In this document: positions 5,820-28,314 of the stretch, in pieces
Layout of the letters: each line of letters starts with the position of its first letter
Position numbering within the stretch: the first letter of the stretch is position 1
NCBI RefSeq assembly: GCF_003389455.1
Contig: NZ_QUAC01000486.1
Coordinates: 1 to 64,000, forward strand
Length of the DNA stretch: 64,000 nucleotides
Reading direction: 5' to 3'
From: Streptomyces inhibens
GTDB taxonomy: Bacteria > Actinomycetota > Actinomycetes > Streptomycetales > Streptomycetaceae
Translations under genes and position numbers: made by a program
Notes under the pieces: model-generated
What the model was told of the DNA's origin: nothing
The model's input: only the letters and a program-made list of their open reading frames with translations
The model's database searches: none

Positions 5820-5821
5820 GG

Positions 5822-6757: not shown

Positions 6758-6834
6758 GCGAGTCCTCTTTCGGTCAGCAGGGTGTGGGCGTCGGCGGCGC
6801 ACCCGGCGGTCCGGCGCCCGGCCCGGACGGGTGC

Positions 6835-10277: not shown

Positions 10278-10346
10278 ATGACCCGCAATCACAAGAGCGG
10301 TCTTCGTCCGACTCTGGACAAGGTGAAGGCCAACAAGGCGAAGTGA
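10278..10346 (+). CDS. 22-residue candidate RiPP precursor peptide
   Basis: A perfect GGGAGGTG ribosome site lies 8 bases before ATG. The peptide begins MTRNHKSGLR and ends DKVKANKAK. It is strongly basic (6 Lys, 2 Arg) and has no Cys or aromatic residue. It is the first gene of the operon, follows the SARP operator, and is separated from the M16 peptidase gene by a hairpin, the usual arrangement for a highly expressed precursor gene. M16 peptidases handle short peptides, as in PQQ biosynthesis. No similar precursor is known to me, so its role as substrate or scaffold is inferred. It could instead be a leader peptide controlling the operon, but it lacks a codon run typical of attenuation. Confidence 0.65.
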   Translation: MTRNHKSGLRPTLDKVKANKAK

Positions 10347-10359
10347 CGCCAGGCTGGGC

Positions 10360-10382
10360 GCCGCGGGCATTACGCCCGCGGC
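10360..10382 (+). terminator. Intercistronic hairpin after the peptide gene
   Basis: GCCGCGGGC and GCCCGCGGC form a perfect 9-bp stem around ATTAC, 13 bp past the peptide stop. Such hairpins often stop part of the transcription, or protect the short upstream mRNA, so that the precursor is made in excess over its enzymes. Confidence 0.65.
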
Positions 10383-10441
10383 CCCAGTCGCGTGGAAATG
10401 GATTCGACAAGCCCGTGTGGCCGTGAACGACAGGTGCGATT

Positions 10442-11659
10442 GTGACAGATTCACGCATGGGACTTCTGTGCGGCGACGTGCCCGTGCTCGTGCGCAATGA
10501 GCCCGGGCGCCGCACGACCGCAATCGCGATCGGGCTGGGGTTCGGGGGCCGCCATGACCGGCGGGGCACGGCCCACATGCTGGAACACCTGCTGATGGCG
10601 GCTCCTCTGGGCGACGGGCCGTCGCTGAGCGAGCGGATCGAGCGCCTGGGCGGCGAGTGCAATGCCACGACCGCTCCGGGCTCGCTCGTCCTGCACGCCA
10701 GGGTGCTCACCGAGGACGCGGCGCAGATCGCGGCGCTGATGTGTCAGGCGCTGCTCCGGCCCGCGCTGAGCCAAGCGGCGCTGGACGCCGAACGCCGGGT
10801 CGTGCTGCAGGAGTTGGCCGCCGCCACGGCGGACCCGGCCGACACGGTGCAGGAGACGTTCCTGGCGGAGCTGTTCCACGGACACCCGCTCGGCTCCGCC
10901 GTGGGCGGGACGCCGGAGGGCATCGAGAGCCTGACCGTGCAGGCCGTGCGCGACGCGCACGCGCGGGCGCTGTCCACACACCCGCTGAGCGTGTCGTGCG
11001 TCGGCGGACTCACGGCCGAGACGCTGCTGCCCGCGCTGGAGGAGGCCGGTCTGGCGGACCTACGGCGGGCGGGAACCGCGGCCGCACCACAGCCGGCGCC
11101 GGGACCGGTCAGCCCGACGGCGCCGGCCCACTGGCCCACCGAATTCTGCTGGTTGATGGTCGGCGGCCGGGCTCCGCGCGCCGACGACCCGGACAGCCCG
11201 GCGTACACCGTCCTCAGCCACCTGCTGGGCTCCAGCCCCGCATCACTGCTCTACGACCAGCTGCGCAACGAACGCGGCCTGGCGTACTCGTTCCACACGT
11301 GGTCCCGTTCCTACAAGGACAGCGGCGCGTGGCGAATGCTCGTCGGATGCGAGCCCGCCAACGCACCGGAGGTGCTCGACATCATCCGGCAGCTGCTGCG
11401 GACCGTGGCCCAGGACGGCCCCCGCGAATCCGACCTGGCCTCGGCCGTCCGGCTCGCCGGCTTCGAGGTGGTGACCACGGCCGAGGACCCGCTGGAACAC
11501 GCCACGAAACTGGTGGAATGGCAGACCCTCACCGGGCGGCCCTGGGATCCCGCCGATGAACTGGAGGCGCTGCGGCAGGTGCGCGCCGACCAGGTCGCCG
11601 CGGCAGCCGCGGAGCTGTCGGACGGGCTGGTCGCCGTCGTCCGCCCGGAGGCATCGTGA
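10442..11659 (+). CDS. M16 zinc peptidase, catalytic subunit
   Basis: The 405-residue protein has the inverse zinc motif HMLEH (His45, Glu48, His49) and a downstream Glu at about 124 in VVLQELA, giving a complete HxxEH...E site. The second half carries the family's NERGLAYSF segment, whose Arg and Tyr help bind substrate. It is one M16A-M16C unit, the size of processing-peptidase or PqqG-like subunits that work as heterodimers. The GTG start follows the peptide gene by 95 bp. Its likely partner is the motif-less M16 protein at 23436-24692. It probably trims or degrades the modified peptide encoded just upstream. Confidence 0.9.
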   Translation: MTDSRMGLLCGDVPVLVRNEPGRRTTAIAIGLGFGGRHDRRGTAHMLEHLLMAAPLGDGPSLSERIERLGGECNATTAPGSLVLHARVLTEDAAQIAALMCQALLRPALSQAALDAERRVVLQELAAATADPADTVQETFLAELFHGHPLGSAVGGTPEGIESLTVQAVRDAHARALSTHPLSVSCVGGLTAETLLPALEEAGLADLRRAGTAAAPQPAPGPVSPTAPAHWPTEFCWLMVGGRAPRADDPDSPAYTVLSHLLGSSPASLLYDQLRNERGLAYSFHTWSRSYKDSGAWRMLVGCEPANAPEVLDIIRQLLRTVAQDGPRESDLASAVRLAGFEVVTTAEDPLEHATKLVEWQTLTGRPWDPADELEALRQVRADQVAAAAAELSDGLVAVVRPEAS

Positions 11660-12504
11660 ACGCGCCGGCCGTACCGTTCTCCGCGAGCGAGCAGTACCTG
11701 GCGGAGGCCGACGAGGCCGGGTGCCTCTTCGAACTCGACGGCTCGCCCTACGTCGCAGGCATGTCCACGGATCCGGTGTCCGGTGCGCAGCAGTGCCTGG
11801 TCGCCTTCGCCGCCCCGGAACTGCTGCGCCATCCCTCACCGCTGCTGCGCACACTGGTCAGCCGCTTCCCGGACTGCCGGAGCGTGGTGGTCCGCACGGC
11901 AGGCGAGCAGGAACCGGGCCCCTTGTTCGAGCCCATGCTCACCTATCTGCGCTACGACGCTCCCGCCGCTCCGGCATCTCCGGTCGCGGGCGGCGTCAGG
12001 GTGACCCGCAGCGACAGCGGCGAACACGACGGCCGGGTCGCGTCCTGGATCTCCCGCGCCCTTCGTGACGGATCGGCCGACCTCGGCCGCGTGGTGGTCG
12101 AGCCGGCCGTCGAGCTGAGCACGCAGGAGATCATGCGGGCCCCGAGCCGCCGCTCCTACCTCGCATGGGCGGACGACATGCAGGAGCCGATCGGGCACGG
12201 CACCGTGCTGGCAGACGAGACGGACGAGGTCAGCGGCACACCGTTCGTCGAGCTCGTGGACATCCTGATCGACCACGCGGAGCACCGGGCGGCGGCCACC
12301 GAGCGGCTCGTACGTGTCATCGCCGCCGAGGCCGCCGCGCAAAGCCTCCCCCTGATCGGCAACGTGGTCCATTCACCGGGCTCGCAGACCGACCCCGGCG
12401 TGAAGGTCGTCGCCTCACTGCAGGCCCGCGGCTGGCAGCCGGTCTTCCGGTACCAGGTCGCCTCCCGGGCACGAATCAACGTTGGCGTAGGAGGACAGCG
12501 ATGA
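11656..12504 (+). CDS. GNAT-like acyltransferase (weak family match)
   Basis: The 282-residue product has no strong motif. Its C-terminal 130 residues follow the GNAT fold order: PIGHGTVLADET strand, VELVDILID strand, a helix rich in Ala/Glu (ATERLVRVIAAEAAAQS), IGNVVHSPG, and a final ARGWQPVFRYQ. GNAT enzymes move acyl groups from CoA to amines, and the peptide or an aminocyclitol would be plausible acceptors. The GTG start overlaps the peptidase stop by 4 bases, and its end overlaps the next gene by 4, so it is tightly coupled. The N-terminal half is unrecognised. Function is inferred from fold only. Confidence 0.55.
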   Translation: MNAPAVPFSASEQYLAEADEAGCLFELDGSPYVAGMSTDPVSGAQQCLVAFAAPELLRHPSPLLRTLVSRFPDCRSVVVRTAGEQEPGPLFEPMLTYLRYDAPAAPASPVAGGVRVTRSDSGEHDGRVASWISRALRDGSADLGRVVVEPAVELSTQEIMRAPSRRSYLAWADDMQEPIGHGTVLADETDEVSGTPFVELVDILIDHAEHRAAATERLVRVIAAEAAAQSLPLIGNVVHSPGSQTDPGVKVVASLQARGWQPVFRYQVASRARINVGVGGQR

Positions 12505-13619
12505 CGGCTCACGCCCCGCACGAACCCACCCTCGGTGTGCTGTACGACCTGCTCGGCGTGGAACGGGACGCGTCGCTCGCGGACGCCGTCCACGCCTCCC
12601 GCGCGCTCCGGGGCGGGTTCGCCAACATCGTGCTGTCGGCCGCCGAGACGGAAGGCATCCCGCTCGGCCCCGGGCACGCGGAGGAACTGCACCGCGCCCG
12701 CCGCAGGGCGGCCGGCTACCGGCAACTGGGCGGTGAGCTGTGTGCCATGCGCGGCGTCACCGTGCACAAGGGGCCCTCCCTGGCGCGGCACTACCCCGAG
12801 GGCTGGCTGCGCCCGTCCGGCGACCTCGACGTGGTCGCGGAGGACGAGGACACGCTCTGGCAGGTGATCGGCAGCGTGGCGCGGCGCTTCCCCGTGGAAG
12901 ATCCCATGCTGTCGCTCCTCCAGCATGGCGACGAGCGGCATCTCTACGTCTCCGTGGGGTGGCCCGCCGCCGATCCGCAGTTCACCCCCAACTTCCGGGT
13001 CGAGGTGACCACCTTCGCCTACGGCGGCGAGCCCGGCGTCGTGCCGATGCGGCCCGCCCAGCCCGCGGACCAGTGGCTGGCCGATCTCCTGGCGATCACC
13101 GAGGAGCGGTTCCAGCGGGAGTTCGACCCCAAGGACCTCCTCGACCTCACCTGCGCGCTCAACTCGCCGACGGCACCGGCACCGGGACTCGTGGCGGCCG
13201 CCGCGGAGGCGTACCTGCTCGCTCCCGAATTGCTGGAGCTGTGCGAGCTGGCGCAACGTCACGCGGCACTGGCGGGCGGCCTTCCCCGGCAGCTGGCGGA
13301 GTTGCTGTGGCCGGCCGCGCAGACCGAGTCGGCCCGCAGGGCCGACGGCCCCGGGGTGCCGCACGTGGAGGACGAACTCGGGGCCCGGCGCGCGGCGGGG
13401 CTGCCCCTCTACGGGATGCAGCTGGCCGAGCGGCTGCGCCTCGGCGACCTGAGGCAGGCCGTCGAGCACCACGTCGACGCCGACGTCCTGCTGCGCACAC
13501 CGATCGCCGACTTCCTGCTGGTGCCATCGGAGCTTGTCGACCCCGAGCGCTACGAGGCCGCTCGCGGCGAACTGGCCACGCTCGCCCCGTGGCCGGCTTC
13601 GACGGCGGACACCGACTGA
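12501..13619 (+). CDS. Nucleotidyltransferase-fold protein (NTP_transf_5-like)
   Basis: This 372-residue protein carries RPSGDLDVVAEDED near residue 110, the GDxD metal-binding signature of the nucleotidyltransferase superfamily. HKGPSLARHYPEGWL precedes it, as in the uncharacterised PF14907 group. Members of that group occur in several ribosomal peptide clusters, for example near lasso peptide genes, where they are thought to act as tailoring enzymes. Here it could transfer a nucleotidyl group to the peptide, or to a cyclitol phosphate as in other C7-cyclitol pathways. A GTAGGAGGA ribosome site precedes the ATG, which overlaps the previous stop. Confidence 0.7.
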   Translation: MTAHAPHEPTLGVLYDLLGVERDASLADAVHASRALRGGFANIVLSAAETEGIPLGPGHAEELHRARRRAAGYRQLGGELCAMRGVTVHKGPSLARHYPEGWLRPSGDLDVVAEDEDTLWQVIGSVARRFPVEDPMLSLLQHGDERHLYVSVGWPAADPQFTPNFRVEVTTFAYGGEPGVVPMRPAQPADQWLADLLAITEERFQREFDPKDLLDLTCALNSPTAPAPGLVAAAAEAYLLAPELLELCELAQRHAALAGGLPRQLAELLWPAAQTESARRADGPGVPHVEDELGARRAAGLPLYGMQLAERLRLGDLRQAVEHHVDADVLLRTPIADFLLVPSELVDPERYEAARGELATLAPWPASTADTD

Positions 13620-13633
13620 GAGGCTGGGACAGC

Positions 13634-14575
13634 ATGGCGATTGTCACCGCGCACGAGCTGACCCGGACCTTCCGGACCCGGCGGGGTCAGGAGGTCACCG
13701 CGCTCGACCGGGTCACCTTCTCCATCGCCGAAGGTGAGACCGTGGGCCTGCTCGGCCCCAACGGGGCGGGGAAGACGACACTGGCCCGGATCCTCGCGAC
13801 GCTCCTGCTGCCCACCCGGGGCACGGCCCAGGTGGCCGGATGGGACGTGGCACGTCAGGCCAAACAGGTACGGCGCGCTGTCGGACTGGTCCTCGGCGGC
13901 GAGCGGGGTCTGTACCGGCGGCTCACCGCACGGCAGAACCTGCGCTACTGGGCGGCCCTGCAAGGGCTGCGCCGGAAGGAGGCCGACCGCAGGACCGACG
14001 AGGTGATCGAGCGCCTGGGCCTGGTGGCGCGCGTCGACGACCGGGTGGAGACCTTCTCCCGCGGCATGGTGCAACGCGTCCACCTTGCCCGCGCCCTGGT
14101 CTCCGATCCCCAGGTGCTCATCATGGACGAGCCGACCAACGGGATGGACCCGCACGCCCGCGCGGGATTCCTGCGGCTGGTCCGGGAGCTGCAGGGTTCG
14201 GGCGTCACGATCCTGCTGACCACACACGACATGCTGGAAGCCCAGGAGTTGTGCGCACGGGTGGCCCTCGTCGACGGGGGACGGATCGTCCGCGCCGGAG
14301 CCACGGAGGAGCTGTTCGCCGATCTCCACGCGCCGCGCATGGTGACCGCCTCCGGCGTCCCGGAGGATCTGCGCTCCCGCCTGGCGGCGTTCCCCGGCGT
14401 GTCCGGCATCGACGGGACCGACGGCGACCTCACCCTCAGGGTCGTGGGCGAGGAGGAGGCGAACCAGGTGCTCCTGGCTCTCGCCGGTGCCGGGGTCCGG
14501 CAGCTCGCGATGGCCCCGCCGAACCTCGCGGACGTGTACCGGACGATCATCGCGGACCGGGAGTTCGCCGTCTGA
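13634..14575 (+). CDS. ABC transporter ATP-binding protein
   Basis: The 313-residue protein has Walker A GPNGAGKTT near residue 42, signature SRGMVQR (a variant of LSGGQ), Walker B VLIMDEP and a switch His in TTHD. It belongs to the ABC-2 drug/polysaccharide exporter type, with a C-terminal extension of about 80 residues as in DrrA-like proteins. It is followed with overlapping codons by two permease genes. The three form one exporter, most likely for the cluster product, and may also give self-protection. Confidence 0.93.
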   Translation: MAIVTAHELTRTFRTRRGQEVTALDRVTFSIAEGETVGLLGPNGAGKTTLARILATLLLPTRGTAQVAGWDVARQAKQVRRAVGLVLGGERGLYRRLTARQNLRYWAALQGLRRKEADRRTDEVIERLGLVARVDDRVETFSRGMVQRVHLARALVSDPQVLIMDEPTNGMDPHARAGFLRLVRELQGSGVTILLTTHDMLEAQELCARVALVDGGRIVRAGATEELFADLHAPRMVTASGVPEDLRSRLAAFPGVSGIDGTDGDLTLRVVGEEEANQVLLALAGAGVRQLAMAPPNLADVYRTIIADREFAV

Positions 14576-15330
14576 TGCTCGTGTACGCCAGAACCCACCT
14601 CACGCTGTTGTTCCGTGACCCCAACCTGCTCGCGCCGCTGGCCGTGCTGCCGCTGTACTGCGTCGTGTTCTTCACCGTGCTCCGGCACCATCACCACGAG
14701 GAACTCGCCACGCAGACCGCGATCGGCGCGTTCCTCATGAGCATGTGGGCGCACGCCGTCTTCGTCGCGGCCGAAGTGGTGGACGACGACCGCCACGAGG
14801 GGACGCTGGAGCCATCCATGCTCACGCCCGGCGCCTACACCGCCGCGCTCTCGGTCCGGGTGTTCTCCACCACCGCCCTGGCGATCCCCGTTCTCGCCGA
14901 GGCCCTGCTCATCGCCCGCTTCGCCTTCGGGTTCCCGGTCACACTCGGCTCGGTGCCGCTGAGCCTGGTGACGGTCGTCCTGACCACCGTGGGCGTCGCC
15001 GGCGCCGCGCTGCTGGTGAGCTGTCTCATGGTCCTCGTCCGGGGAGCCAGGACACTGCAGAACGCCCTCACCTACCCGGTCTACCTCCTCGGCGGCCTCA
15101 TCCTGCCGGCCAGCACGCTGCCCGAGCCGCTCCGGTGGATCGCCCGTGGCTTCTTCCTGTCATGGAGCGCCGATGTGCTGCGGGCCCTGCAGGTCGCCGG
15201 TGCACCGGCCCCGCTCGGCTCGCTGGGCGTGCTCACCGTACTGGTGGCGGCCCAAGTGCTGGTGGGATTCCTGGCGTTGCGAAGGGTCCTGACGACTGTC
15301 AGGGCGGGAGGGGTGTCGCTGTATGACTAG
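14575..15330 (+). CDS. ABC-2 type permease, first subunit
   Basis: The 251-residue protein has about six hydrophobic segments, starting with LLAPLAVLPLYCVVFFTVL and including a VVLTTVGVAGAALLVSCLMV stretch. A conserved-type YPVYLLGGLILPASTLPE loop precedes the last helices, as in ABC-2 exporters. The start ATG shares one base with the ATPase stop, and the end overlaps the next permease by 8 bases. It is expected to pair with the second permease in the membrane. Confidence 0.88.
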   Translation: MLVYARTHLTLLFRDPNLLAPLAVLPLYCVVFFTVLRHHHHEELATQTAIGAFLMSMWAHAVFVAAEVVDDDRHEGTLEPSMLTPGAYTAALSVRVFSTTALAIPVLAEALLIARFAFGFPVTLGSVPLSLVTVVLTTVGVAGAALLVSCLMVLVRGARTLQNALTYPVYLLGGLILPASTLPEPLRWIARGFFLSWSADVLRALQVAGAPAPLGSLGVLTVLVAAQVLVGFLALRRVLTTVRAGGVSLYD

Positions 15331-16135
15331 CCAGGAACGGACTTCGGCCAGGCTCTCCGCAGCGGCCCGGCAGATCGGGTACGGGGTGATCAGCAGCTAT
15401 CACGACTATCGGGCGATGTTCACCTGGCGGTCCTGGGTCGGGGGCTGGCTGCTGAGGCTCACCTGCCAGGTGCTGTTCTTCGCCACCCTGGGCAAGCTCA
15501 TGGCCGATCCGGGGGCGGAGGCGTACATCGCGCTCGGCAACGCCGCCGTCCTGGGCCCGCTCGGGACGCTCGGGGTCGTCTCGTCCAGCGTCGGTGAACG
15601 CAGGTCGGGCACCCTCCAGTACCTCCTCGTCAGCCGGGCGAACCCCCTGCTGGTCATCGCCTCCCGGGGGCTGTACTGGGTGGCGGACGGCATCATCACC
15701 TCGTGCGCCGTGCTGACGATCATGTCGGTGCTGATCCCGGGCACCGTGCACTCGGGCGCACTGCCGGGGATCCTCGCCATAGAGGTGCTGCTCGCGCTCT
15801 GCGCCTACGCGATGTCCCTGGCGCTCGCGAGCCTGAGCCTGCGCAGGCCGGGCAGCCGCATGTACCTCACCGCGAGCACCACGATCATCATCCTGGCCCT
15901 CGCCGGGGTGAACACGCCGCCGCCGGCCGGCGGACCCTGGGGCGTCATCGGTCAGCTACTGCCGGTCCGCCACGGCCTGCAGGCGATCCGGGAACTGGCG
16001 GCCGGCCGGCCGCTGCCCGTGGGACTCGTGGCGGGCGAGCTCGCCGTGGCACTCGGCTGGGCGGTCCTCGCCTACACGGGCCTGACGCTGACCCTTCGGC
16101 GCAACACGCGCTCCGGCGCGCTCTCGCTCTCATGA
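15323..16135 (+). CDS. ABC-2 type permease, second subunit
   Basis: The 270-residue protein shows several membrane segments (for example GILAIEVLLALCAYAMSLAL and TIIILALAGV). It is a distinct second half rather than a duplicate of its neighbour. Translation is coupled through the 8-base overlap with the previous gene. It ends 67 bp before the aminotransferase gene. With the two genes before it, it completes a heteromeric exporter. Confidence 0.86.
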   Translation: MTSQERTSARLSAAARQIGYGVISSYHDYRAMFTWRSWVGGWLLRLTCQVLFFATLGKLMADPGAEAYIALGNAAVLGPLGTLGVVSSSVGERRSGTLQYLLVSRANPLLVIASRGLYWVADGIITSCAVLTIMSVLIPGTVHSGALPGILAIEVLLALCAYAMSLALASLSLRRPGSRMYLTASTTIIILALAGVNTPPPAGGPWGVIGQLLPVRHGLQAIRELAAGRPLPVGLVAGELAVALGWAVLAYTGLTLTLRRNTRSGALSLS

Positions 16136-16202
16136 CGCAGCTGATCAGACGCGATCCGCCGTCAAGTCACCTGCCTGTTCACCCGAGAAAGAAAGATTCC
16201 CG

Positions 16203-17486
16203 ATGAGTGACGCGTTCGAAGAATCACCCCCGCCTCCGCCCGCCTACTACAAGCAGGGCACTGCCCGGCTGGTCGGCGGGAGTGGCCTGCGGGTCTGGGA
16301 CGCCGACGGGCGTGAGTATCTGGACTGCGCGGCAGGAACCTTCAACCTCTCCCTCGGGCACAACCACCCGGACGTGGTGGCCGCCATCAAGGGGCAGACC
16401 GACGAGCTGCTCTTCGCAAGCTCCATGTTCCAGACCGACGTCTCCAACCGGGTGATGGAACTGCTCGTCGAGCTGAGCCCGGCGAACCTCACCCGGGTCA
16501 ACCTCCGCAGCAGCGGCGGCTCGACCGCCACGGAAGGGGCGGTGAAGATCGCCCAGCTGCACACGGGGCGCCGCGACGTCATCGTGCCGTTCCGCGGACA
16601 CGTCGGGCAGACGCTCGCGGCCAGCGGGCTGAACGGCATGTCCCAGCTGCGGGCGCCGTTCCCGGCGGTCTACCCGAGGGCGGTCAACGTCCCGGACCCC
16701 TACTGTCTGCGCTGCTTCTACCGGCAGGAGCCCGACAGTTGCGGCTACCTCTGCATCGACCGCATCGACGACTTCATCAGGTACGCCGGTACGGGCAGCA
16801 CCGCGGCCATGCTGATCGAGCCGATCAGCGGCGCCGGCGGCAACATCGTCCCCCCGCCCGGATACCTGCAGCGGCTCCGGGAGTTCTGCGACGAGCGGGA
16901 CATCGTCCTCATCTTCGACGAGACCCAGACGTCGTTCGGACGCACCGGTTACCTGACGGCGGCCGAGGCGTTCGGCGTCGAGCCGCACATGATGACCGTG
17001 TCGAAGGGGCTGAGCGGGTCCGGTCTGCCGCTGGCGGCGATCATCACCGAGGAACGGCTCATCGGCATGGACCGGTCTCTGCACGGCTTCACCTCGGGCG
17101 GCCACCCGATCGCCGCCGCGGCCACCATCGCCACGCTGTCGCAGGTCCGCCGGCCGGAGTTCCTGGAGAACGTCCGCACCGTCGGCTCCGCCCTCAAGGC
17201 CGCCCTGCTCGACCTCGGCCGCACGTACCCGGAGATCGGTGACGTACGCGGCCTGGGGCTGATGCTCGGCATCGAACTGTCGGAACCGGACGGGTCGCGC
17301 TCGCCGCGCCTGGCCCGGGCGCTGCACGCGGCGCTGATGGAGCGCGGGGTCATCACCCGGGTGTCCGAGCACAGCGAGGGGAACACCATCGAACTGCGCC
17401 CGCCCCTGATCCTGACCCACGAGGACGCCAAGCTCGTGGCCGAACGCTTCGGGGAGGCACTGGAAATGATGCGGGTGCGCTCATGA
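16203..17486 (+). CDS. Class III PLP-dependent aminotransferase
   Basis: The 427-residue protein has the class III aminotransferase layout. GHNHPDVVAAI lies near residue 55, the cofactor aspartate is in LIFDETQTSFGRTG, and the internal aldimine lysine is Lys268 in TVSKGLSGSG. A Cys-rich insert (PYCLRCFYRQEPDSCGYLC, about 160-185) recalls a metal-binding loop and is unusual for the family. In C7-cyclitol pathways an aminotransferase converts a keto-cyclitol into the amine, which fits the cyclase gene that overlaps its stop codon. Amination of a peptide-derived ketone is an alternative. Confidence 0.88.
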   Translation: MSDAFEESPPPPPAYYKQGTARLVGGSGLRVWDADGREYLDCAAGTFNLSLGHNHPDVVAAIKGQTDELLFASSMFQTDVSNRVMELLVELSPANLTRVNLRSSGGSTATEGAVKIAQLHTGRRDVIVPFRGHVGQTLAASGLNGMSQLRAPFPAVYPRAVNVPDPYCLRCFYRQEPDSCGYLCIDRIDDFIRYAGTGSTAAMLIEPISGAGGNIVPPPGYLQRLREFCDERDIVLIFDETQTSFGRTGYLTAAEAFGVEPHMMTVSKGLSGSGLPLAAIITEERLIGMDRSLHGFTSGGHPIAAAATIATLSQVRRPEFLENVRTVGSALKAALLDLGRTYPEIGDVRGLGLMLGIELSEPDGSRSPRLARALHAALMERGVITRVSEHSEGNTIELRPPLILTHEDAKLVAERFGEALEMMRVRS

Positions 17487-19633: not shown

Positions 19634-20706
19634 CCGGGTGGCAACTGGTCCGCTCCGGGCACCGGGTCCGGATCGAACCGATGGAAAGGCCACCCGGCGA
19701 CCGGCCGTACGTGTCGATGCTTGCCGTGGGACTCTGCGGCACCGACGTCCAGATCGGCGCCGGTCACCGGGGGGACGTGGCCGGGGTGCTCGGCCACGAA
19801 GGCATCGGGATCCTGCACGGCGTTCCCGGCGGCGACCGGATGGTCGTGTTCAACCCCGTCGACGTGCGCAACCAGGATTCGGTACTCGGCCACAGCTTCG
19901 ACGGCCTGCTCCGCAGCTGGGTCCCCCTGGGACCGGAGCTGCCGCCCGGCGCGCTGCAGGAGGTCCGGCCGCTGGACCCGACGGCCGTGCTCACGCTGTG
20001 CGAGCCGCTCGGCACCGTCCTCTACTCGTGGGAGCTGATCGGGCGTTCGGCCCCGGCCGGCCCCCTGTCCGTCGGCATCTGGGGCGCCGGCCCGATCGGG
20101 CTGCTCCATGCGCGGAGGGCGACTGACCAGGGACACGACGTCGAACTGGTCGAGGCGCGGCCGGAACGCCTGGCCTGGGTGGAGAACCACGCCCGCCTCG
20201 CGCCCGTCCGCCTCTCCGTGACCGGCCACCGCGCGCCGCGGCCACTCGACGTGGCGGTCGTCTGCGCCCCACGGCCGTCGATGGCGAGCGCCGTCCGGGA
20301 GGCGGCGGACACACTGCGGTCCGGCGGGACGATGGTGCTCGTCACGGCGCTCGACGCGGCGGCAGCGGCTCCCACCTTCACCGACGCCACGGTCGGCCGG
20401 GTGCGCCGGCACAACGTCTGCGGCGGGATCGATCCTGAACTGGGCCTGCTCAAAGCGGTCTCGCACGAGGGCAAACCGCTGGTGCTCACCGGCCACCGGG
20501 GCACCTCGTCGGCCCAGCTGCGCGCGGCGGAATCGGTCCTCCGCGCGGATCCCGGCGGGTACGGCGGCCTCATCACCCACGAGCTGGGCCCCGAGGACGC
20601 GGTGGACGTGATCAACCGCCGGCTCGACGGGCAGTTCCGGGCCGCCGACGGCTCCGAGATCGTCAAGGTCGTCGTCCGCTTCCCCGACGGCGGCCGCCAT
20701 GGGTGA
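19630..20706 (+). CDS. Medium-chain (zinc-type) dehydrogenase, first copy
   Basis: This 358-residue MDR protein carries GLCGTDVQIG and GHEGIG, the catalytic-zinc ligand segment (Cys and His-Glu). Its NAD(P)-binding motif is GIWGAGPIGLLHA near residue 155. The structural-zinc Cys cluster is missing. GTG overlaps the cyclase stop (GTGA). In aminocyclitol pathways such enzymes oxidise a ring hydroxyl to the ketone that is then transaminated. Together with the adjacent second MDR gene it may set up two oxidations, or one oxidation and one reduction, on the cyclitol. Confidence 0.85.
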   Translation: MTGWQLVRSGHRVRIEPMERPPGDRPYVSMLAVGLCGTDVQIGAGHRGDVAGVLGHEGIGILHGVPGGDRMVVFNPVDVRNQDSVLGHSFDGLLRSWVPLGPELPPGALQEVRPLDPTAVLTLCEPLGTVLYSWELIGRSAPAGPLSVGIWGAGPIGLLHARRATDQGHDVELVEARPERLAWVENHARLAPVRLSVTGHRAPRPLDVAVVCAPRPSMASAVREAADTLRSGGTMVLVTALDAAAAAPTFTDATVGRVRRHNVCGGIDPELGLLKAVSHEGKPLVLTGHRGTSSAQLRAAESVLRADPGGYGGLITHELGPEDAVDVINRRLDGQFRAADGSEIVKVVVRFPDGGRHG

Positions 20707-21718
20707 ACGCCGGAGCAGGAGCCTGGAGCTGGTGCCCGGCGGGGTCCGGCTCACCACCCGCCCGTGGCCGCGCCCGGCGTCCCCGTCATGGGTGCTGGTC
20801 CGCCCGCACACCGTGGGCCTGTGCAGCTCGGACCTCAAGGAGGTCCGCCGCAGCCGCGACGTGCGGGCCGACTTCGGCCACGAAATGGTCGCCCTGGTGC
20901 ACAGCAGCAGCTCGGACGACTTCCCGCCCGGCCTGCGGGTGTGCCTGGACCCCCACGTCCCGGTGACCCGGACAACCGCGTTCGGAGAGACGGCACTTCT
21001 GACCGGACCGCCCGAGCAGCTGCGCGCCGCCCTGCCGGCCGTGCCCGACGGCACGCCGGACGACCGGGCGGTCTTCACCGAGCCCCTCGCGTGCACCGTC
21101 CACTGCGCGGCCAACGTCCTCCCCGGTTCCGATGTCGCGATCATCGGGGCAGGAACCGCGGGAGTCCTTCTGGCAGTGCTGCTGAGGCTCAACGGATGCC
21201 GGGTCACCCTGATCAACAGGAGTCCCGAGCGGCTGGCCGCCCTCTCCCCGACGGCGCTGCTGCGGGACGTGCCGAAGATCCCCCGCCGTGAGGTGGGAAC
21301 GCGCACCTTCGGCACCGTGGTCGTGACCACGGCGTCGCTTGACAGCAGCACCTTCGACAGCGCCTGGAACCTGCTGCCGGCGCATGGCGGACGTCTCGTC
21401 CTGTTCGGCGGCATCAGGCCGGACTGGCAGGTGCCGGGCACGCGGCTGCTGCTGGACGGCATCCGCCGCGGCGAGCAGACGCTGGAGCTGGATCGGGGCG
21501 GGCGCCGCGCCCTGGTGGTGGGGACGCACGGCGCCACCGGCGCCGACTTCACCACGGCCGGCGCGGTGCTGGCGGCGCCGCTTCCCTGGACCACCAGCCA
21601 TGTCGAGGAGCTCATCGTCGGCCGGGTGACTCTGCCCGTCCTGGCCGAGCTGCTCAACGACGCGGCCAGGACGGGCGTGGACCCGGCCGGGAAGCACGTG
21701 GTGGACATCCGCCGGTAG
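20699..21718 (+). CDS. Medium-chain (zinc-type) dehydrogenase, second copy
   Basis: The 339-residue product is a divergent MDR relative of its neighbour. It retains GLCSSDLKEV and FGHEMV for zinc binding, and AIIGAGTAGVLLAVLL for the nucleotide. Its ATG overlaps the preceding gene by 8 bases. It is the last gene of the rightward operon, 38 bp from the end of the converging operon. Low similarity between the two dehydrogenases argues for different substrates or positions on the ring. Confidence 0.83.
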   Translation: MGERRSRSLELVPGGVRLTTRPWPRPASPSWVLVRPHTVGLCSSDLKEVRRSRDVRADFGHEMVALVHSSSSDDFPPGLRVCLDPHVPVTRTTAFGETALLTGPPEQLRAALPAVPDGTPDDRAVFTEPLACTVHCAANVLPGSDVAIIGAGTAGVLLAVLLRLNGCRVTLINRSPERLAALSPTALLRDVPKIPRREVGTRTFGTVVVTTASLDSSTFDSAWNLLPAHGGRLVLFGGIRPDWQVPGTRLLLDGIRRGEQTLELDRGGRRALVVGTHGATGADFTTAGAVLAAPLPWTTSHVEELIVGRVTLPVLAELLNDAARTGVDPAGKHVVDIRR

Positions 21719-21756
21719 CGGCCTGCCGCCCTGCCGGGCCCGCCCTCACGACCGCT

Positions 21757-22443
21757 CTACCGGGCCGCTTCGCACAGGCTCGTGTAGGCATCCAGGGCGG
21801 GTCCGAGGGCGGCCTGGTCGGCCCCGCTCAGCTCGGTGCGCCACCGGCCCGCCCCCTTGATCGACTGATCGCCTGGGTGCTTGGTGTGGAACGGGCCGAG
21901 CTGACGGGACTGGATCGACTCACAGACCTCGCGGTCGGACGTCCAGCCGAGCCAGGCGGCCAGGGCGGCGATCCCGGCCGGCCGGTCGGTCCAGAACTGC
22001 TCGTAGCGGATGAGGTGCACGCGCTCGGCGCCCGCGGCGGCACGTGCGCTGAGGATGGTGCGGGCGTAGGTGACGTACGCCTGCGCGAAGCCGGCCGCGC
22101 CGGTCTCCGAAACGCCCAGGCGGGAGAATTCGAGCATCCGGGTGGGCATTCCGGCGTTCACCTTCTCCAGGATCGAGCACAGCACGTCACGGGGGTCACG
22201 GACCATCACGGCGGCACGGGCCTGCGGGTAGGCGTCCAGCGCGGCGGGCAGCACTTCGGTCATCCGCGGGCACTTCAGGATGTCCCACCGTGCCAGCTCC
22301 TCCGCGGGGGCCGTGACGTCGACCAGACGGCCCGTCATGGCCCAGTCGGGATCCTCCAGCAAGGTCCGCCGGCACGACTCGGAGAGCATGTGCGCCACAG
22401 CGCTCGTGCCGGAACGGTGTATACCGCAGATGAGCAATTGCAT
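21757..22443 (-). CDS. PAPS-dependent sulfotransferase
   Basis: The 228-residue protein starts with the 5'-phosphosulfate loop ICGIHRSGTSAVA and contains MVRDPRDVLCSI, the 3'-phosphate-binding Arg/Ser segment of sulfotransferases. A late HTKHPGDQSIKGAG stretch resembles the loop that closes over the nucleotide. It should move sulfate from PAPS to a hydroxyl or amine of the product. GAGGTGG precedes the ATG. CysD and CysN in the same cluster supply APS, but no APS kinase is present locally. It is the last gene of the leftward operon. Confidence 0.87.
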   Translation of the reverse strand: MQLLICGIHRSGTSAVAHMLSESCRRTLLEDPDWAMTGRLVDVTAPAEELARWDILKCPRMTEVLPAALDAYPQARAAVMVRDPRDVLCSILEKVNAGMPTRMLEFSRLGVSETGAAGFAQAYVTYARTILSARAAAGAERVHLIRYEQFWTDRPAGIAALAAWLGWTSDREVCESIQSRQLGPFHTKHPGDQSIKGAGRWRTELSGADQAALGPALDAYTSLCEAAR

Positions 22444-22534
22444 GGAGCCACCTCGGAGTTGTGTCGTACAGGTCGTACAGCAGATGGGTTCCGGGCGGCC
22501 GGCCCGGTACGGCGAAGACCTCGCGCACCCGCTC

Positions 22535-23443
22535 CTACTCCCGCGGGTCCGGCCGGCGGTCGGTTCCGGTGCCATGGCCGGACTGCCCGCTGTCGCCGGG
22601 CCCGCGGGCGATCAGGCCGAAGGCGCGAACCGTCCGGCACGTGTCGTGCGCGGCCTTCGCCGACGCCATCGGAAGAACGAATCCCTCGCCGTCGTACAGC
22701 GCCGCGAATCCGGCCCGCACGGCGAATTCCGGCTCACCGACGCCCGCCGTCTCGGCCAGGAAGCACGCCATGTCGTCGAACGCCACCGCCCAGTGGCGCT
22801 TGGCGTAGATGCAGACGCGATGGCTCGCGGCCGGCAGCGGCGGACTCCAGTGGGTCGGCCGGCGGCCGCGCTGTTCTGGGACGGACGCCCACCACCTGTC
22901 GAGCGCCGCCTCGACGGTCTCCATGCTCCAGCCGTGCCAGGTCGCGGTGGTGGGACGGAAGCGCGCGTCCGGGTCGTACCGGCCGTCGAGGAGGGCCGCG
23001 AGCTCCCGGCGGGCCTCCTCGGCCGAGTCCGGGCTGTGGACGAGGTTGGCGTAGTAGACGGCGCCGTGCCGGCGGCGGATCGCCGATTTGAGGGCCAGCA
23101 GCCGGGCGGTGGCCCCGGGCCCGTCGACCAGGACCAGCCGGCTCGGCCCCGCGGACAGGTAGCGCCGCATGAGGCCCGCGGTCAGCGGCCTGCGGCCGGG
23201 GTCGATGCCGGACCACACGGCCGCGATCTGGGCCTCCGTCAGGCGCAGGGGGTGCTGCTCCAGCACCCGCAGGCCCGCCCGGGCGATGTCCGCCACGCAG
23301 TCCTGCAGGAGGCGCCGTTCGAGAGTGTCCGGCTTGAACAGCAGGAAACCGCGTTCCGTCGGTCCGGCGCCGTCGTGACGACGGGTGTCCGGCGTGACCA
23401 GCAGGGTTGCCCCGTCGTCACGGCCCGGGGCGCGCTCACTCAT
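22535..23443 (-). CDS. Nucleoside-diphosphate-kinase-like protein
   Basis: The 302-residue product contains an NDK-like domain from about residue 30 to 155. It begins GFLLFKPDTLERRLL and ends with NLVHSPDSAEEARREL, which keeps the His that NDK phosphorylates (NxxHGSDS in true NDKs). Ordinary NDK is about 140 residues; the C-terminal 150 residues here are unrecognised. The ATG overlaps the M16 stop (ATGAGTGA). A role in recharging nucleotides or phosphorylating a pathway intermediate is possible, and a house-keeping role is unlikely given the context. No matching cluster enzyme is known to me. Confidence 0.7.
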   Translation of the reverse strand: MSERAPGRDDGATLLVTPDTRRHDGAGPTERGFLLFKPDTLERRLLQDCVADIARAGLRVLEQHPLRLTEAQIAAVWSGIDPGRRPLTAGLMRRYLSAGPSRLVLVDGPGATARLLALKSAIRRRHGAVYYANLVHSPDSAEEARRELAALLDGRYDPDARFRPTTATWHGWSMETVEAALDRWWASVPEQRGRRPTHWSPPLPAASHRVCIYAKRHWAVAFDDMACFLAETAGVGEPEFAVRAGFAALYDGEGFVLPMASAKAAHDTCRTVRAFGLIARGPGDSGQSGHGTGTDRRPDPRE

Positions 23444-24692
23444 CGCGGGCCCGCCCGTCCGGGCGCACGACGACACGGAGGCCCTCCGCCACCGCCGCGG
23501 CGGCGCCGGCGACGTCCGCCGCCGTGACGCGGGCGAGCCGCGCCCGCTCCGCCTCCGGGGACCAGACGGCACCCGTGACGCAGTGGTGGCTCGCCACGAC
23601 GGCCGCGTAGCCGTTCTCCGCCGTCCGGAGCAGCTCCGTCCGCGCCTGGCGGACCGCGGCGTCCAAGTCCGCCGGCGCGGGACCGTGCTGCGCCAGCCGG
23701 GCGAGTTCCGCGCGGAGCGTCCGGACCACCGCAGGGCCGTCGGCGCCGTCGGTACCGGCCAGGAAGCACCAGACACCCGCATCGCTGTACGCGCGGGCCC
23801 ACGCCCGGAACACGGGCGCGAGGCCGTGCTCGGCGCGAAGGCGCCGGTGCATCTGGGACGCCGGGCCCGCGCCGAGCACATGGCCGAGGAGGACGAACGC
23901 GTCACGCCGCGGGTCCGTGGCGGTCGGGGCCGGCGCGCCGGCGAGGAGCTGGCAGGGCCCGTCCAGCCAGGCGGGATCCGGCGGGACGGGACGACCGGCG
24001 GGGGCGTGGGGGGAACGCCGCGGCCGGACGCCGCCCGCCCTGGCCATCGCCAGGGGGGACATCCGGCTGCGCAGCGCCGCCTCCCTCACGTTGCCGTCGC
24101 ACGCCAGGGCCAGCGGAACCGTCGCCAGCGCCCGCTGATGCACCTGCAACAGCGGGCCGAGGGCGATCCGCCCGGCACCGCCCGGCGTGCCGTCCACCGC
24201 CGCGCCCAGCGGATGGCCGGGGAAGACGGCGGCGAGGAACGCCGCCTGCAGGGCATCGGCCAGGGGGGCGGCGGGGTCCGCCTCGGCCGCCGCCGGCTCC
24301 CGGGTGACGTTCCGCTGCTCCCGGCCGAGCGCCGCGTCCGACAGCGCCGGCCGGGTCAGCGCGTCGAGCATCCAGCCGGCGACCACGGGAGCGTCATCGG
24401 CCGGCACCCGGGCGTGGACCGTCAGCGACTCCGCTCCGGTCACGGCTCCCCACGTCCCGCCGAACTGCTCGACGCGCTCGCCCAGCGAGGGGCCGCCCTC
24501 CAGCGGCACCGACATGATGAGGCGCCCCAGCAGGTGTGCGGCGCCACTCATGCCCGCAGGGTCGTCGCGGCTGCCGAAGCCGAGCGAGAGCGCGATGCCG
24601 GCGGTGTGCCCGCCGTCCGTCGGGGTCAGCAGCAGCGGCAGGCCGCCGTCGAGCTGCGCGACGCGCGTTGTTGAGGTCTGGCCGGTTATGAC
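23436..24692 (-). CDS. M16-family subunit without zinc motif (non-catalytic partner)
   Basis: The protein aligns along its length with the M16 peptidase at 10442: SLGFGSRDD for GLGFGGRHD, and AHLLGRLIM for AHMLEHLLM. The zinc motif HxxEH has become HLLGR, losing the Glu and second His. The C-terminal ERGLAYSF is HGLAPVF. Inactive M16 subunits pair with active ones in mitochondrial processing peptidase and in bacterial two-gene systems. No ATG, GTG or TTG occurs in frame between the upstream stop (24808) and the start of homology, so the start is unclear. 24692 is a rough limit and is not a recognised start codon. Confidence 0.75.
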   Translation of the reverse strand, partial: VITGQTSTTRVAQLDGGLPLLLTPTDGGHTAGIALSLGFGSRDDPAGMSGAAHLLGRLIMSVPLEGGPSLGERVEQFGGTWGAVTGAESLTVHARVPADDAPVVAGWMLDALTRPALSDAALGREQRNVTREPAAAEADPAAPLADALQAAFLAAVFPGHPLGAAVDGTPGGAGRIALGPLLQVHQRALATVPLALACDGNVREAALRSRMSPLAMARAGGVRPRRSPHAPAGRPVPPDPAWLDGPCQLLAGAPAPTATDPRRDAFVLLGHVLGAGPASQMHRRLRAEHGLAPVFRAWARAYSDAGVWCFLAGTDGADGPAVVRTLRAELARLAQHGPAPADLDAAVRQARTELLRTAENGYAAVVASHHCVTGAVWSPEAERARLARVTAADVAGAAAAVAEGLRVVVRPDGRARDE

Positions 24693-24807
24693 GTCACCTG
24701 CACAGGTCGTCCGGTCGCTGGTCCCGCTGCGTCCCGGTGGCGCAGCACTGCGTCGGGCAAGGGAACCCTCCGGGATGTGAGATACGGGTACGGGACGGAG
24801 AACGGTG

Positions 24808-25677
24808 TCAGGACTCTTCCAGGGCCGACACCAGCGGGGGCGCCAGGCCAGGGGAGGCGATTGCGTCCAGGAGGCCGGAGGACGCGACGTGGTCGGCGCG
24901 CCTCTCGTAGACGACCTCGCACTCCTGCGGCGAGTCCTCGTACCCGTCGGGCGGTGCGTAGCTGGGCACGGCCGCCAGTTCTGGTATCGGCATGGCCTGC
25001 GCCAGCCGCTCCCGGGCATCGGCGAGACGGCCGTCGTCCCGGACGCCGTTCAGCACGTACCCGATCATCAGCCGGCGGTAGGGCTCGCCCAGCACACCCG
25101 GCAGGCCCGCCAGGGCCGCCAGGTGCCCCTCCTGATTGACGTTGCCGACGAGCACCACCGGCAGTCCCGCCCGCAGGGGCACGACGTCGTTGGCCAGATC
25201 CGCCCGGGACGGCTGGTTCCCGGCACCGCCGGACCCCTCGATGACGACGAAGGAACCGCGATCGGCCAGAACGGCCAGGGCGTGCCCCACGGCGTCCAGA
25301 CACCTCAGGCGCAGGTCACGGGGGAACGTGCGCAGGTCCAGACTGTCCTGGCCGAAGACCGGCACCTCGCCGAGCGGCTCTCCGCACACGTACAGCTGAC
25401 CGCGGCCGTTCCCGTCCGTCACGGCCACCACGGGGTTGTTCCACCACCGCACCGGGACTCCGGCCGCACCACAGTTGTGGAAGACACCGTGCTCGTACAC
25501 CTTGAGCGGAGGGCCCGGCCGGTCCGTTGTCTTCACGACGCTGGTGGCCTTGAACGGGTCGACCGCGATGTTCCGGCGACGAAGCGCGCGGGTGATCCCG
25601 ACCGCCACCGCCGTCTTGCCGGTACCGGAACCAGGAGCGATGAGCGTGACGCCACGTGGCAACGGCGTATCCGTCAT
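24808..25677 (-). CDS. CobQ/BioD-type ATPase domain protein
   Basis: The 289-residue product has the P-loop APGSGTGKTAVAVG near residue 14, VDPFKATSVVKT (compare KaQN of cobyric acid synthase), and IEGSGGAGNQPSRADLAND followed by VVLVGNVNQEGHLAAL. These follow the N-terminal ATP-dependent domain of CobQ/CobB. The glutamine amidotransferase domain is absent. Such domains activate a carboxylate with ATP for amide or ring formation, as BioD does. The gene is first in the leftward operon, behind the second SARP-like operator. The ATG at 25677 is preferred over an upstream one because GAGGGA lies in front of it. Confidence 0.75.
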   Translation of the reverse strand: MTDTPLPRGVTLIAPGSGTGKTAVAVGITRALRRRNIAVDPFKATSVVKTTDRPGPPLKVYEHGVFHNCGAAGVPVRWWNNPVVAVTDGNGRGQLYVCGEPLGEVPVFGQDSLDLRTFPRDLRLRCLDAVGHALAVLADRGSFVVIEGSGGAGNQPSRADLANDVVPLRAGLPVVLVGNVNQEGHLAALAGLPGVLGEPYRRLMIGYVLNGVRDDGRLADARERLAQAMPIPELAAVPSYAPPDGYEDSPQECEVVYERRADHVASSGLLDAIASPGLAPPLVSALEES

Positions 25678-25778
25678 GCTGTCGCTTCCCTCGTTCCCGG
25701 GCCCCGGACCGCGGCTGCTCGGCTCACGCCCGTCTCCTTGTCGCACCGTCACGCCGGATGTCCCGAGCGTTCGTTGTC

Positions 25779-25828
25779 ATCACAGCAGAGCAGGATCAAC
25801 GACTGATCAACAGACGATTGATCGGCAG
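25779..25828 (-). promoter_or_regulatory. Putative SARP operator of the leftward operon
   Basis: Read leftward, CCGATCA, TCTGTTG and GTCGTTG start every 11 bp. The 25 bp at 25804-25828 match the operator at 10111 with 3 mismatches, and ATCACAGCAGAG (25779-25790) is the complement of the second shared block. The gap between the two blocks is 13 bp here and 24 bp at the other site, a difference of 11 bp or about one helical turn. It lies about 100-150 bp before the CobQ-like gene. Confidence 0.7.
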
Positions 25829-27219: not shown

Positions 27220-28314
27220 GGCGCGTATCGAGTCGTGATCAATTGCGGGATTCGCCGTCGCGGCGGGGCCTGGACCGGTAGATCTTCTTGCGTGACGCGA
27301 ATGCAACTGGCCGACGAGGAGTGGGAGTTCATCGAGCCGTACCTGCCGATCGGCGAGTACGGCCCATACCCTGAGCGGCTGCGACAGCAGTTCGCGGGCG
27401 CGATCTGGCGGTTCAAGACTGGCGGACAGTGGCGGGAGATGCCACAGGAATTCGGCGCCTGGTCGACCGTCCACAACCGCTTCCGGCAGTGGCGTGACGC
27501 CGGCGTCTTCGAGGCCCTGCTGGAGGGCCTGATCGCGGAAGCCGCGAAGCAGGGTGAGGTGGACTTGTCCCTGGTAAGCATCGACTCCACCACCGCGCGC
27601 GCTCACCACGACGCTGCCGGGATGCACCTGGGCCAGGACGTCATCACCGCCCTGGAGAAGGCTGCCGCTGAAGAGGAGAAGGCCAGAGCAAAAGGGGCGG
27701 CCTCGAAGAACAAAACGGGCGGGACGCAGAAGCTGATTCCGAGCGAGAGGAGCGGCGACGCATCCGGCGTCGACGAAAACTGCGGCTGAAGGCCGCTCTC
27801 CTCGGACGCTCCAGGGGCGGGCAGACCAGCAAGGTCCATCTTGCCGCCGACCGCAATTGCCGCCCGCTGGCGTTCGTCCTGACTGCGGGCCAGGCCGAGG
27901 ACAGCCCGCAGTTCATCCCCGTGCTGGGGAAGATACGGGTCCGCGGCCCCGTCGGCCGCCCCCGCACCCGGCCGGACGCAGTCGCCGCCGATAAGGCCTA
28001 CTCATCCCGTGGCAACCGGGCCCACCTGCACGGACGCGGTATCAAGGCTGTGATCCCGGAAAAGAAGGACCAGGCAGCCAACCGGAAGAAGAAGGGCTCC
28101 GGGGGCGGCCGGCCCGTCAGCCACGACGCCGACGTCTACAAGGAGCGGAACACCGTCGAGCGCCTGATCAACAAGCTGAAGGCCTGGCGAGGCATCGCCA
28201 CCCGATACGACAAGACCCCAGACAGCTACCTCGCCGGCCTCCACCTTCGCGCCTCAATGATCTGGATCAAAGACCTCACCCAGACCACCCATTGATCACG
28301 ACTCGATACGCGTC
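27220..28314 (+). mobile_element. Complete IS5/IS427-like insertion sequence with CTAG target duplication
   Basis: The 1095-bp element has terminal inverted repeats of more than 20 bp (left GGCGCGTATCGAGTCGTGAT, right end its complement with one mismatch). It is flanked by CTAG at 27216-27219 and 28315-28318. Its two transposase frames are in -1 relation. Confidence 0.92.
27301..28295 (+). CDS. IS427-group transposase, two overlapping frames
   Basis: Frame A (27301-27789) begins MQLADEEWEFIEPYLP and holds the first catalytic Asp in SIDSTTARAHHDAAG. Frame B continues to 28295 with VHLAADRNCRPLAFVLTAGQ and ends with the DDE-type ERNTVERLINKLKAWRGIATRYD. The shift is -1 near GACGAAAACTG (27770-27780), where a GAAAAC run would allow slippage. 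Two-frame transposases made by -1 frameshifting are normal in this IS group, so the element may be functional. A plain frameshift mutation is the alternative. Confidence 0.85.

Follow-up and report, generated by a model that had tools for sequence, protein, structure and literature searches.

We analysed a 64,000-nucleotide stretch of the Streptomyces inhibens genome (contig NZ_QUAC01000486.1, positions 1 to 64,000; hereafter the window), in which a gene for a 22-residue peptide stands at the head of a locus of peptidase, exporter and cyclitol-type genes. The host genome is high in GC and 9.48 Mb long. From position 10278, the plus strand carries the peptide gene followed by genes for an M16 metallopeptidase (M16A), a GNAT-like protein, a nucleotidyltransferase (NTase)-like protein, an ABC transporter ATPase, two ABC-2 permeases, a class-III aminotransferase, a ROK kinase fused to a 2-epi-5-epi-valiolone synthase (EEVS)-like cyclase, and two dehydrogenases resembling the medium-chain dehydrogenase/reductase (MDR) family. 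From 25677 inward, a minus-strand block encodes a CobQ/BioD-like enzyme, a second M16 subunit (M16B), an NDK-like protein and a sulfotransferase, while a SARP regulator, CysD, CysN, a FAD/NAD(P)-binding protein and an S9 peptidase are encoded on the divergent side, upstream of the peptide gene. Every gene listed for this locus in an earlier sequence-only reading of the same DNA is present, as checked one by one with Pfam scans, sequence motifs and structure models. That reading also took the enzyme genes to act as a unit. Start and stop codons do overlap along the plus strand (M16A/GNAT, GNAT/NTase, ATPase/permease 1, permease 1/permease 2, aminotransferase/EEVS, EEVS/MDR1 and MDR1/MDR2), but the locus is not a single operon, because M16A to MDR2 on the plus strand and CobQ to sulfotransferase on the minus strand form two blocks that converge, and the peptide gene has a 3′ hairpin of its own.

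The peptide, MTRNHKSGLRPTLDKVKANKAK (10278–10346, plus strand), which we propose to be a precursor or scaffold, is encoded by an open reading frame (ORF) with a strong Shine–Dalgarno sequence, its ribosome-binding site being AGGGAGGTG. It has 17 other distinct relatives in Streptomyces, and all 18 members of the family, which are 19–23 residues long, share the motif H-x3-[LM]-R-P-x-L-D-K. The H, R, P, L, D and K of the motif are invariant, also among peptides found without use of the motif pattern; the residue preceding the His is mostly Asn or Lys, and Cys, Trp, Tyr and Phe occur in none of the 18. Because the family has 18 distinct members, the window peptide lies far beyond chance and its gene is real. 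Neither Pfam nor NCBIfam holds a family for it, and the gene tables searched, themselves incomplete, list no gene at the peptide for 8 Streptomyces plasmids. Directly after the stop codon, an inverted repeat (10357–10385, plus strand) forms a GC-rich hairpin of terminator- or stabiliser-like type, and the 70 nt past the stop codon fold at −40.1 kcal/mol (z = −3.8). A strong hairpin follows the stop codon in all 22 distinct stretches folded (70 nt each; z from −2.8 to −7.9). The stem sequences differ, as expected for a separate, abundant peptide message.

The peptide gene and the M16 gene belong together, as the sequence-only reading had proposed, whether M16, the GNAT-like gene or the peptide is used to look for the clusters. 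Searching plasmids with M16A returned 8 Streptomyces records at 41–56% identity, all of which carry the peptide, and tblastn with the peptide of the Mg1 cluster recovered exactly the same 8 plasmids. In two plasmid cluster types, Mg1/goshikiensis and HUAS 15-9, the window's M16-GNAT-NTase-ABC-permease-permease row recurs, each time with a short ORF like that of the window. A genome-wide alignment scan with the GNAT-like protein, which is blind to the peptide, returned 8 loci, and both the M16-GNAT-ABC core and the peptide were found in 8/8; every M16- or GNAT-led locus thus contained a related peptide. Coming from the other side, we searched 393 Streptomyces genomes with a DNA pattern for the peptide motif. 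A reversed control pattern matched about equally often, and match count alone is therefore no evidence; real genes were told from two chance matches (L044 and L056) by start codon, Shine–Dalgarno sequence, length, hairpin and M16 neighbour. Sixteen of the 18 matches are real ORFs (19–23 codons, with ATG and a ribosome-binding site), and each of these 16 stands beside an M16 gene of the window's type. Conservation of the peptide gene in related clusters, which the sequence-only reading had suggested checking, therefore holds in both directions, M16- or GNAT-led and peptide-led. The GNAT, NTase and exporter genes are present in all but two of the 16 peptide-led loci: L067 has M16 and GNAT, with NTase and exporter absent from the stretch read, and L073 is a natural truncated cluster that breaks off inside M16 and continues into unrelated genes, with the peptide intact.

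The distribution figures rest on the 393 Streptomyces genomes and on a class-wide sample of 375 genomes. In the latter, 3 of 37 Streptomyces genomes gave matches, and none of the 338 non-Streptomyces actinomycete genomes did. Several clusters sit on large linear plasmids. The conserved core consists of the peptide, the M16 peptidase, a tandem-GNAT-fold protein, an NTase-fold protein and a three-gene ABC-2 exporter. A SARP homologue accompanies most clusters and is missing from the stretch read in L065, L069 and L072.

In the window, M16A (10442–11659, plus strand; Pfam M16 1.4e-16, M16_C 1e-24) retains an intact zinc motif, HMLEH, and is 42–57% identical to the peptide-adjacent M16 proteins of other clusters. 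M16B (23436–24686, minus strand; Peptidase_M16 1.2e-11, M16_C 6.8e-14) is about 42% identical to M16A and probably inactive, because HLLGR stands in place of the zinc motif. Among the clusters compared, a second M16 within the peptide locus is unique to the window. Where the homology of M16B starts (24680–24700, minus strand) there is no ATG, GTG or TTG; an in-frame ATA follows AGGTGA, a possible rare start or sequence error.

The core protein encoded next to M16A (11656–12504, plus strand) has no Pfam match. The sequence-only reading called it GNAT-like, and this is borne out by its AlphaFold2 model (pLDDT 88.8), which in Foldseek matches tandem GNAT proteins, including the aminoacyl-tRNA-dependent Sba18 and FemX. 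Given this resemblance, its donor may be an acyl-CoA or an aminoacyl-tRNA. The call of a nucleotidyltransferase fold for the following protein (12501–13619, plus strand; NTP_transf_5-like) fared less well, as its Pfam match is below the cut-off (2.4e-5) and its fold matches are marginal: the model (pLDDT 89.2) comes nearest to the putative NTase JHP933 of H. pylori and to DNA polymerase mu, at E values of about 1e-3 to 2e-2. Residues K90-G91, R104 and D108-x-D110 are invariant. In cluster L070, the GNAT and NTase parts are fused into a single ORF. The core of the window is completed by the exporter, which comprises an ATPase (13634–14575, plus strand; ABC_tran 7.7e-33), permease 1 (14575–15330, plus strand; ABC2_membrane 6.4e-14) and permease 2 (15323–16135, plus strand), whose ABC2_membrane match is weak and whose position is conserved in other clusters.

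Behind the core lie the genes that suggest a cyclitol. The class-III aminotransferase, which is predicted to use pyridoxal phosphate (16203–17486, plus strand; Aminotran_3 4.3e-80), is 48–50% identical to one that follows the exporter and NDK genes in three further peptide clusters, none with EEVS (the BK340 group); on the strength of this identity, a set already linked to the peptide core seems to have been extended by the EEVS genes. The published fingerprint of EEVS enzymes comprises 14 residues (PMC4426668). In the ROK-EEVS fusion (17483–19633, plus strand; ROK 9.2e-17, DHQ_synthase 5.5e-32), the best solved match of the cyclase domain is ValA (4p53; 313 bits, E = 1.5e-92), far above the DDGS-type 5tpr (196 bits) and dehydroquinate synthase (141 bits). 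At the level of sequence, this agrees with the earlier assignment of the cyclase as EEVS-like. Dehydrogenase MDR1 (19615–20706, plus strand) has a weak ADH_N match and is 38% identical to its counterpart after ROK-EEVS on plasmid pSCL4 of S. clavuligerus, and MDR2 (20699–21718, plus strand; ADH_N 2.7e-6) is 37% identical to its own pSCL4 counterpart. That plasmid (L041, 11971–17409) carries a stand-alone ROK-EEVS-MDR-MDR-aminotransferase set with no peptide core, an aminocyclitol pathway that is apparently unassigned, and, as ROK-EEVS-MDR-MDR occurs there without the core, it is a movable module.

The minus-strand block adds a sulfotransferase (21757–22443; Sulfotransfer_3 3.6e-16) with the motifs HRSGTS and RDPRD typical of enzymes using 3′-phosphoadenosine 5′-phosphosulfate (PAPS). 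Next to it are an NDK-like gene (22535–23443, minus strand; NDK 1.5e-9), whose product keeps the catalytic-type His (NLVHSPDS) and which recurs in peptide loci of the Mg1 type, the BK340 type, L068 and L069, and, beyond M16B, a CobQ/BioD-like P-loop enzyme without a glutaminase domain (24808–25677, minus strand; AAA_26 2.4e-10), corresponding to the N-terminal half of CobQ and having a 42% identical homologue in the peptide cluster L070. The sequence-only reading placed a SARP gene within the locus between 10278 and 25828. The gene exists but lies outside that range, on the minus strand at 6835–9834, where it encodes a large regulator with BTAD (4.8e-45), NB-ARC and TPR parts and is divergent from the peptide gene. 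Behind it are the genes for a CysD-like sulfate adenylyltransferase subunit (cysD; 5822–6838, minus strand; PAPS_reduct 4.6e-45) and a CysN-like GTPase subunit (cysN; 4536–6065, minus strand; GTP_EFTU 1.9e-40), of which the genome has three copies of the latter.

In other clusters, the core stays constant while the enzyme sets vary, and they include kinases, aminoacyl-tRNA synthetase paralogues, and dCTP-deaminase-like, AdoHcyase-like, JmjC and radical SAM enzymes. Clusters of the Mg1 type contain HisRS-like genes, an AMP-ligase, aminotransferases and amino-sugar enzymes, and those of the HUAS type an AdoHcyase-like protein, a cupin, an aminotransferase, a guanylate-kinase-like protein and a 729-residue protein, part of which looks NDK-like by eye. 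The BK340 type has NDK, an aminotransferase, a kinase-HAD fusion and a MetRS-like gene; the melanogenes type has genes for a short-chain dehydrogenase/reductase and for thymidylate-kinase-like, P-loop and HAD proteins; and the flavofungini type has adenylate-kinase-like, histidine phosphatase, PPDK-like and ARMT1-like genes. L070 and L067 carry radical SAM genes. In L068 and L077, cytochrome P450 and dCTP-deaminase-like genes lie behind the core (two of the latter in L068), and aminoacyl-tRNA synthetase paralogues of differing specificity are found in L031/L078, L023 and L069 (MetRS-like, HisRS-like and class-II D/K/N type). JmjC genes of the ribosomal-oxygenase type are close to the peptide in L026, L034, L064 and L067. 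Such enzymes can hydroxylate His or Arg, and both residues are invariant in the peptide.

The C7-cyclitol set of the window (aminotransferase, ROK-EEVS and two dehydrogenases), together with the sulfotransferase and CysDN, is therefore one among many interchangeable sets on the core. The sequence-only reading proposed a candidate new pathway type that combines a ribosomal peptide with cyclitol formation and sulfation. Cyclitol formation and sulfation are confined to the window, and other clusters place different enzymes on the same core; it is the peptide core that constitutes the new pathway type, and the combination of peptide and cyclitol in the window is real.

On balance, we lean towards the view that the locus belongs to an undescribed Streptomyces family of pathways to ribosomally synthesised and post-translationally modified peptides (RiPPs), built from a conserved mini-peptide, core enzymes and an exchangeable small-molecule set. 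The peptide is most likely a RiPP-type scaffold or conjugate that is loaded with variable small molecules. Two general features of RiPP pathways are present: a genetically encoded precursor (an ORF of 19–23 residues with a Shine–Dalgarno sequence in every related cluster) and genes for a protease and an exporter (M16 and ABC-2, by predicted function). We infer the chemistry as follows, including each step, the residue of attachment and whether the peptide is kept in the product or cut away. The very short peptide would be made from its own hairpin-ended message, and the exchangeable set would supply a small molecule. The NTase-fold protein would couple this molecule, bearing a phosphate, to the peptide, which the tandem GNAT-fold protein would acylate or aminoacylate; the M16 peptidase (in the window a pair, with A presumed active and B inactive) would trim the peptide, and the ABC-2 exporter would send the product out, under SARP control. 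In the window, the EEVS domain would cyclise sedoheptulose 7-phosphate to 2-epi-5-epi-valiolone, the ROK domain would phosphorylate it, the two dehydrogenases and the aminotransferase would oxidise and aminate the cyclitol, and the sulfotransferase would sulfate it with locally supplied adenosine 5′-phosphosulfate (APS). The set would thus yield a sulfated amino-sugar-like ring.

Several observations weigh against this picture. No modification of the peptide, product or activity is on record. None of Ser, Thr or Cys is conserved in the peptides, which leaves the attachment residue unclear, and the window peptide alone has Thr instead of Arg after the Pro (RPT, where all others have RPR). The fold assignment of the NTase-like protein is weak, and for both it and the GNAT-like protein the donor and acceptor are guesses. 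EEVS, sulfotransferase and CysDN occur in the window cluster only, among the clusters compared, so that gene order alone links them to the peptide. Finally, the window has no APS kinase gene; the genome has two, only with the other two CysN copies, and PAPS would therefore need an APS kinase acting in trans.

In a special form of the scaffold reading, the products would be Trojan-horse compounds: the peptide would bear a nucleotide- or sugar-like warhead whose target is an aminoacyl-tRNA synthetase or similar enzyme, with spare copies of the target conferring self-resistance. We consider this possible, if somewhat unlikely. It would account for the synthetase paralogues of the Mg1 type (HisRS-like), L069 (class-II D/K/N type) and the BK340 type (MetRS-like), for the AdoHcyase-like protein of the HUAS type, and for the nucleotide-kinase or dCTP-deaminase-like enzymes of many clusters, and there is precedent in AcmD and SbzA, spare synthetases that serve as a resistance or biosynthetic enzyme (PMC12945691). 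However, the window cluster has no synthetase and no MccB/ThiF-like enzyme, and the synthetases may instead feed aminoacyl-tRNA to the GNAT-fold protein.

Alternatively, the locus could hold two adjacent independent pathways, one making a peptide product with the core and the other a free sulfated C7 aminocyclitol, which share just the locus and its regulator. The stand-alone ROK-EEVS-MDR-MDR-aminotransferase set of S. clavuligerus and the absence of EEVS from every other peptide cluster speak for such a separation. This is nevertheless unlikely in our view, since the aminotransferase preceding EEVS is 48–50% identical to its relatives in three other peptide clusters and therefore belongs to the peptide system. 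Moreover, the genes from M16A through MDR2 overlap or abut, and M16B and the NDK-like gene share the minus-strand block with the sulfotransferase.

A further reading, which we consider quite improbable, makes the peptide a secreted signal: M16 would process it, the ABC transporter would export it and the SARP would sense it through its TPR part, with the enzymes making an unrelated small molecule. A short basic peptide with a peptidase and an exporter is a plausible layout for a signal, and a SARP with BTAD, NB-ARC and TPR parts is near the peptide in most clusters. Yet such a scheme gives no role to the tandem GNAT and NTase proteins, which nearly all clusters have, or to their fusion in L070, three clusters have no SARP in the stretch read, and RPxLDK is invariant despite diverged SARPs, whereas signals usually diverge. 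We rejected as barely credible a leader ORF that controls the downstream gene by attenuation, a layout suggested by the position of the peptide about 100 bp upstream of M16A and before a hairpin, because in L024/L057 and L032 the peptide gene is kilobases from M16 and on the opposite strand, and because the peptide sequence itself is conserved.

We also compared the scaffold-type pathway with characterised systems. EEVS, kinase, dehydrogenase and aminotransferase steps are known for acarbose and validamycin. Like these C7N aminocyclitol pathways, the window encodes, by family, an EEVS-type cyclase (best solved match ValA), a kinase, dehydrogenases and an aminotransferase; in contrast to them, its cyclase is fused to a ROK kinase, the genes sit on a ribosomal-peptide core with a sulfotransferase, and no pseudoglycosyltransferase was seen. 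Pearlins and other scaffold-peptide pathways (3-thiaglutamate, ammosamide; PMC9303977, PMC12424672) likewise build a small molecule on a ribosomal peptide, here possibly cut away, but in the window M16 replaces TldD/E and the family peptides have 19–23 residues, whereas TglA has 50 (PMC9016710). Membership was rejected, as Pfam scans of the window cluster genes gave no hit to a LanB-like peptide aminoacyl-tRNA ligase (PEARL). Microcin C-type peptide-nucleotides share the tiny peptide, the nucleotide-type enzymes of many clusters and, in some, the aminoacyl-tRNA synthetase theme; their peptide has 7 residues, unlike that of the family, which has a conserved internal His and RPxLDK. With no MccB/ThiF adenylyltransferase hit in the same scans, this class was rejected as well.

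The sequence-only reading drew a parallel to pyrroloquinoline quinone (PQQ) biosynthesis, of which the M16 gene beside a gene for a peptide of about 20 residues stands. The remainder does not: PqqA has Glu-x3-Tyr, which is not conserved in the family peptides, none of the 18 distinct peptides contains the necessary Tyr, and Pfam scans of the window cluster found neither a PqqE radical SAM enzyme nor PqqC, so PQQ membership was rejected. Class III lanthipeptides are matured by M16 heterodimers (PMC8960859), and PttP1/PttP2 resemble the window's M16 pair in that one subunit bears the zinc motif. The family peptides, however, lack Cys and conserved Ser/Thr, and Pfam scans of the window cluster genes gave no hit to a Lan synthetase; this membership too was rejected. 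The phosphorylated lasso peptide pseudomycoidin receives hexoses from PsmN, an NTP_transf_5-type protein with a nucleotidyltransferase annotation (PMC9266682). PsmN offers a likeness to the NTase-type action on a ribosomal peptide proposed here, but the window cluster has no lasso cyclase or lasso precursor features.

The idea of a ribosomal precursor peptide is itself known, but no RiPP class tested accommodates this peptide family, its M16/tandem-GNAT/NTase core or the mix-and-match enzyme sets. Full-text searches of open-access papers, from which subscription journals are mostly missing, found no description of such a cluster, including by peptide motif, and in that literature the statement that no characterised cluster combines a RiPP arrangement with C7-cyclitol formation still applies. 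Because these clusters lack the hallmark enzymes of every RiPP class checked, class-based genome mining may miss them. We tentatively extend the proposal to a new RiPP class, in which one mini-peptide and the M16/tandem-GNAT/NTase core form a platform for diverse warheads (aminocyclitols, amino sugars and nucleotide-like molecules), some aimed at aminoacyl-tRNA synthetases, in about 4% of the Streptomyces species sampled; this could well prove too broad. If true, a peptide platform shared by interchangeable small-molecule sets would be a new logic of natural-product assembly. It would also open a way to new compounds, and genes within the clusters (spare aminoacyl-tRNA synthetases, AdoHcyase) may already hint at the targets of some of these.

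At the margins of the locus, two further minus-strand genes could be cluster members: that for the FAD/NAD(P)-binding protein (3098–4555), which overlaps cysN, and that for the S9 (DPP IV-like) peptidase (276–2501), behind SARP-CysD-CysN. Immediately past the right edge of the cluster, at 27235–28295, are broken transposase-like reading frames.

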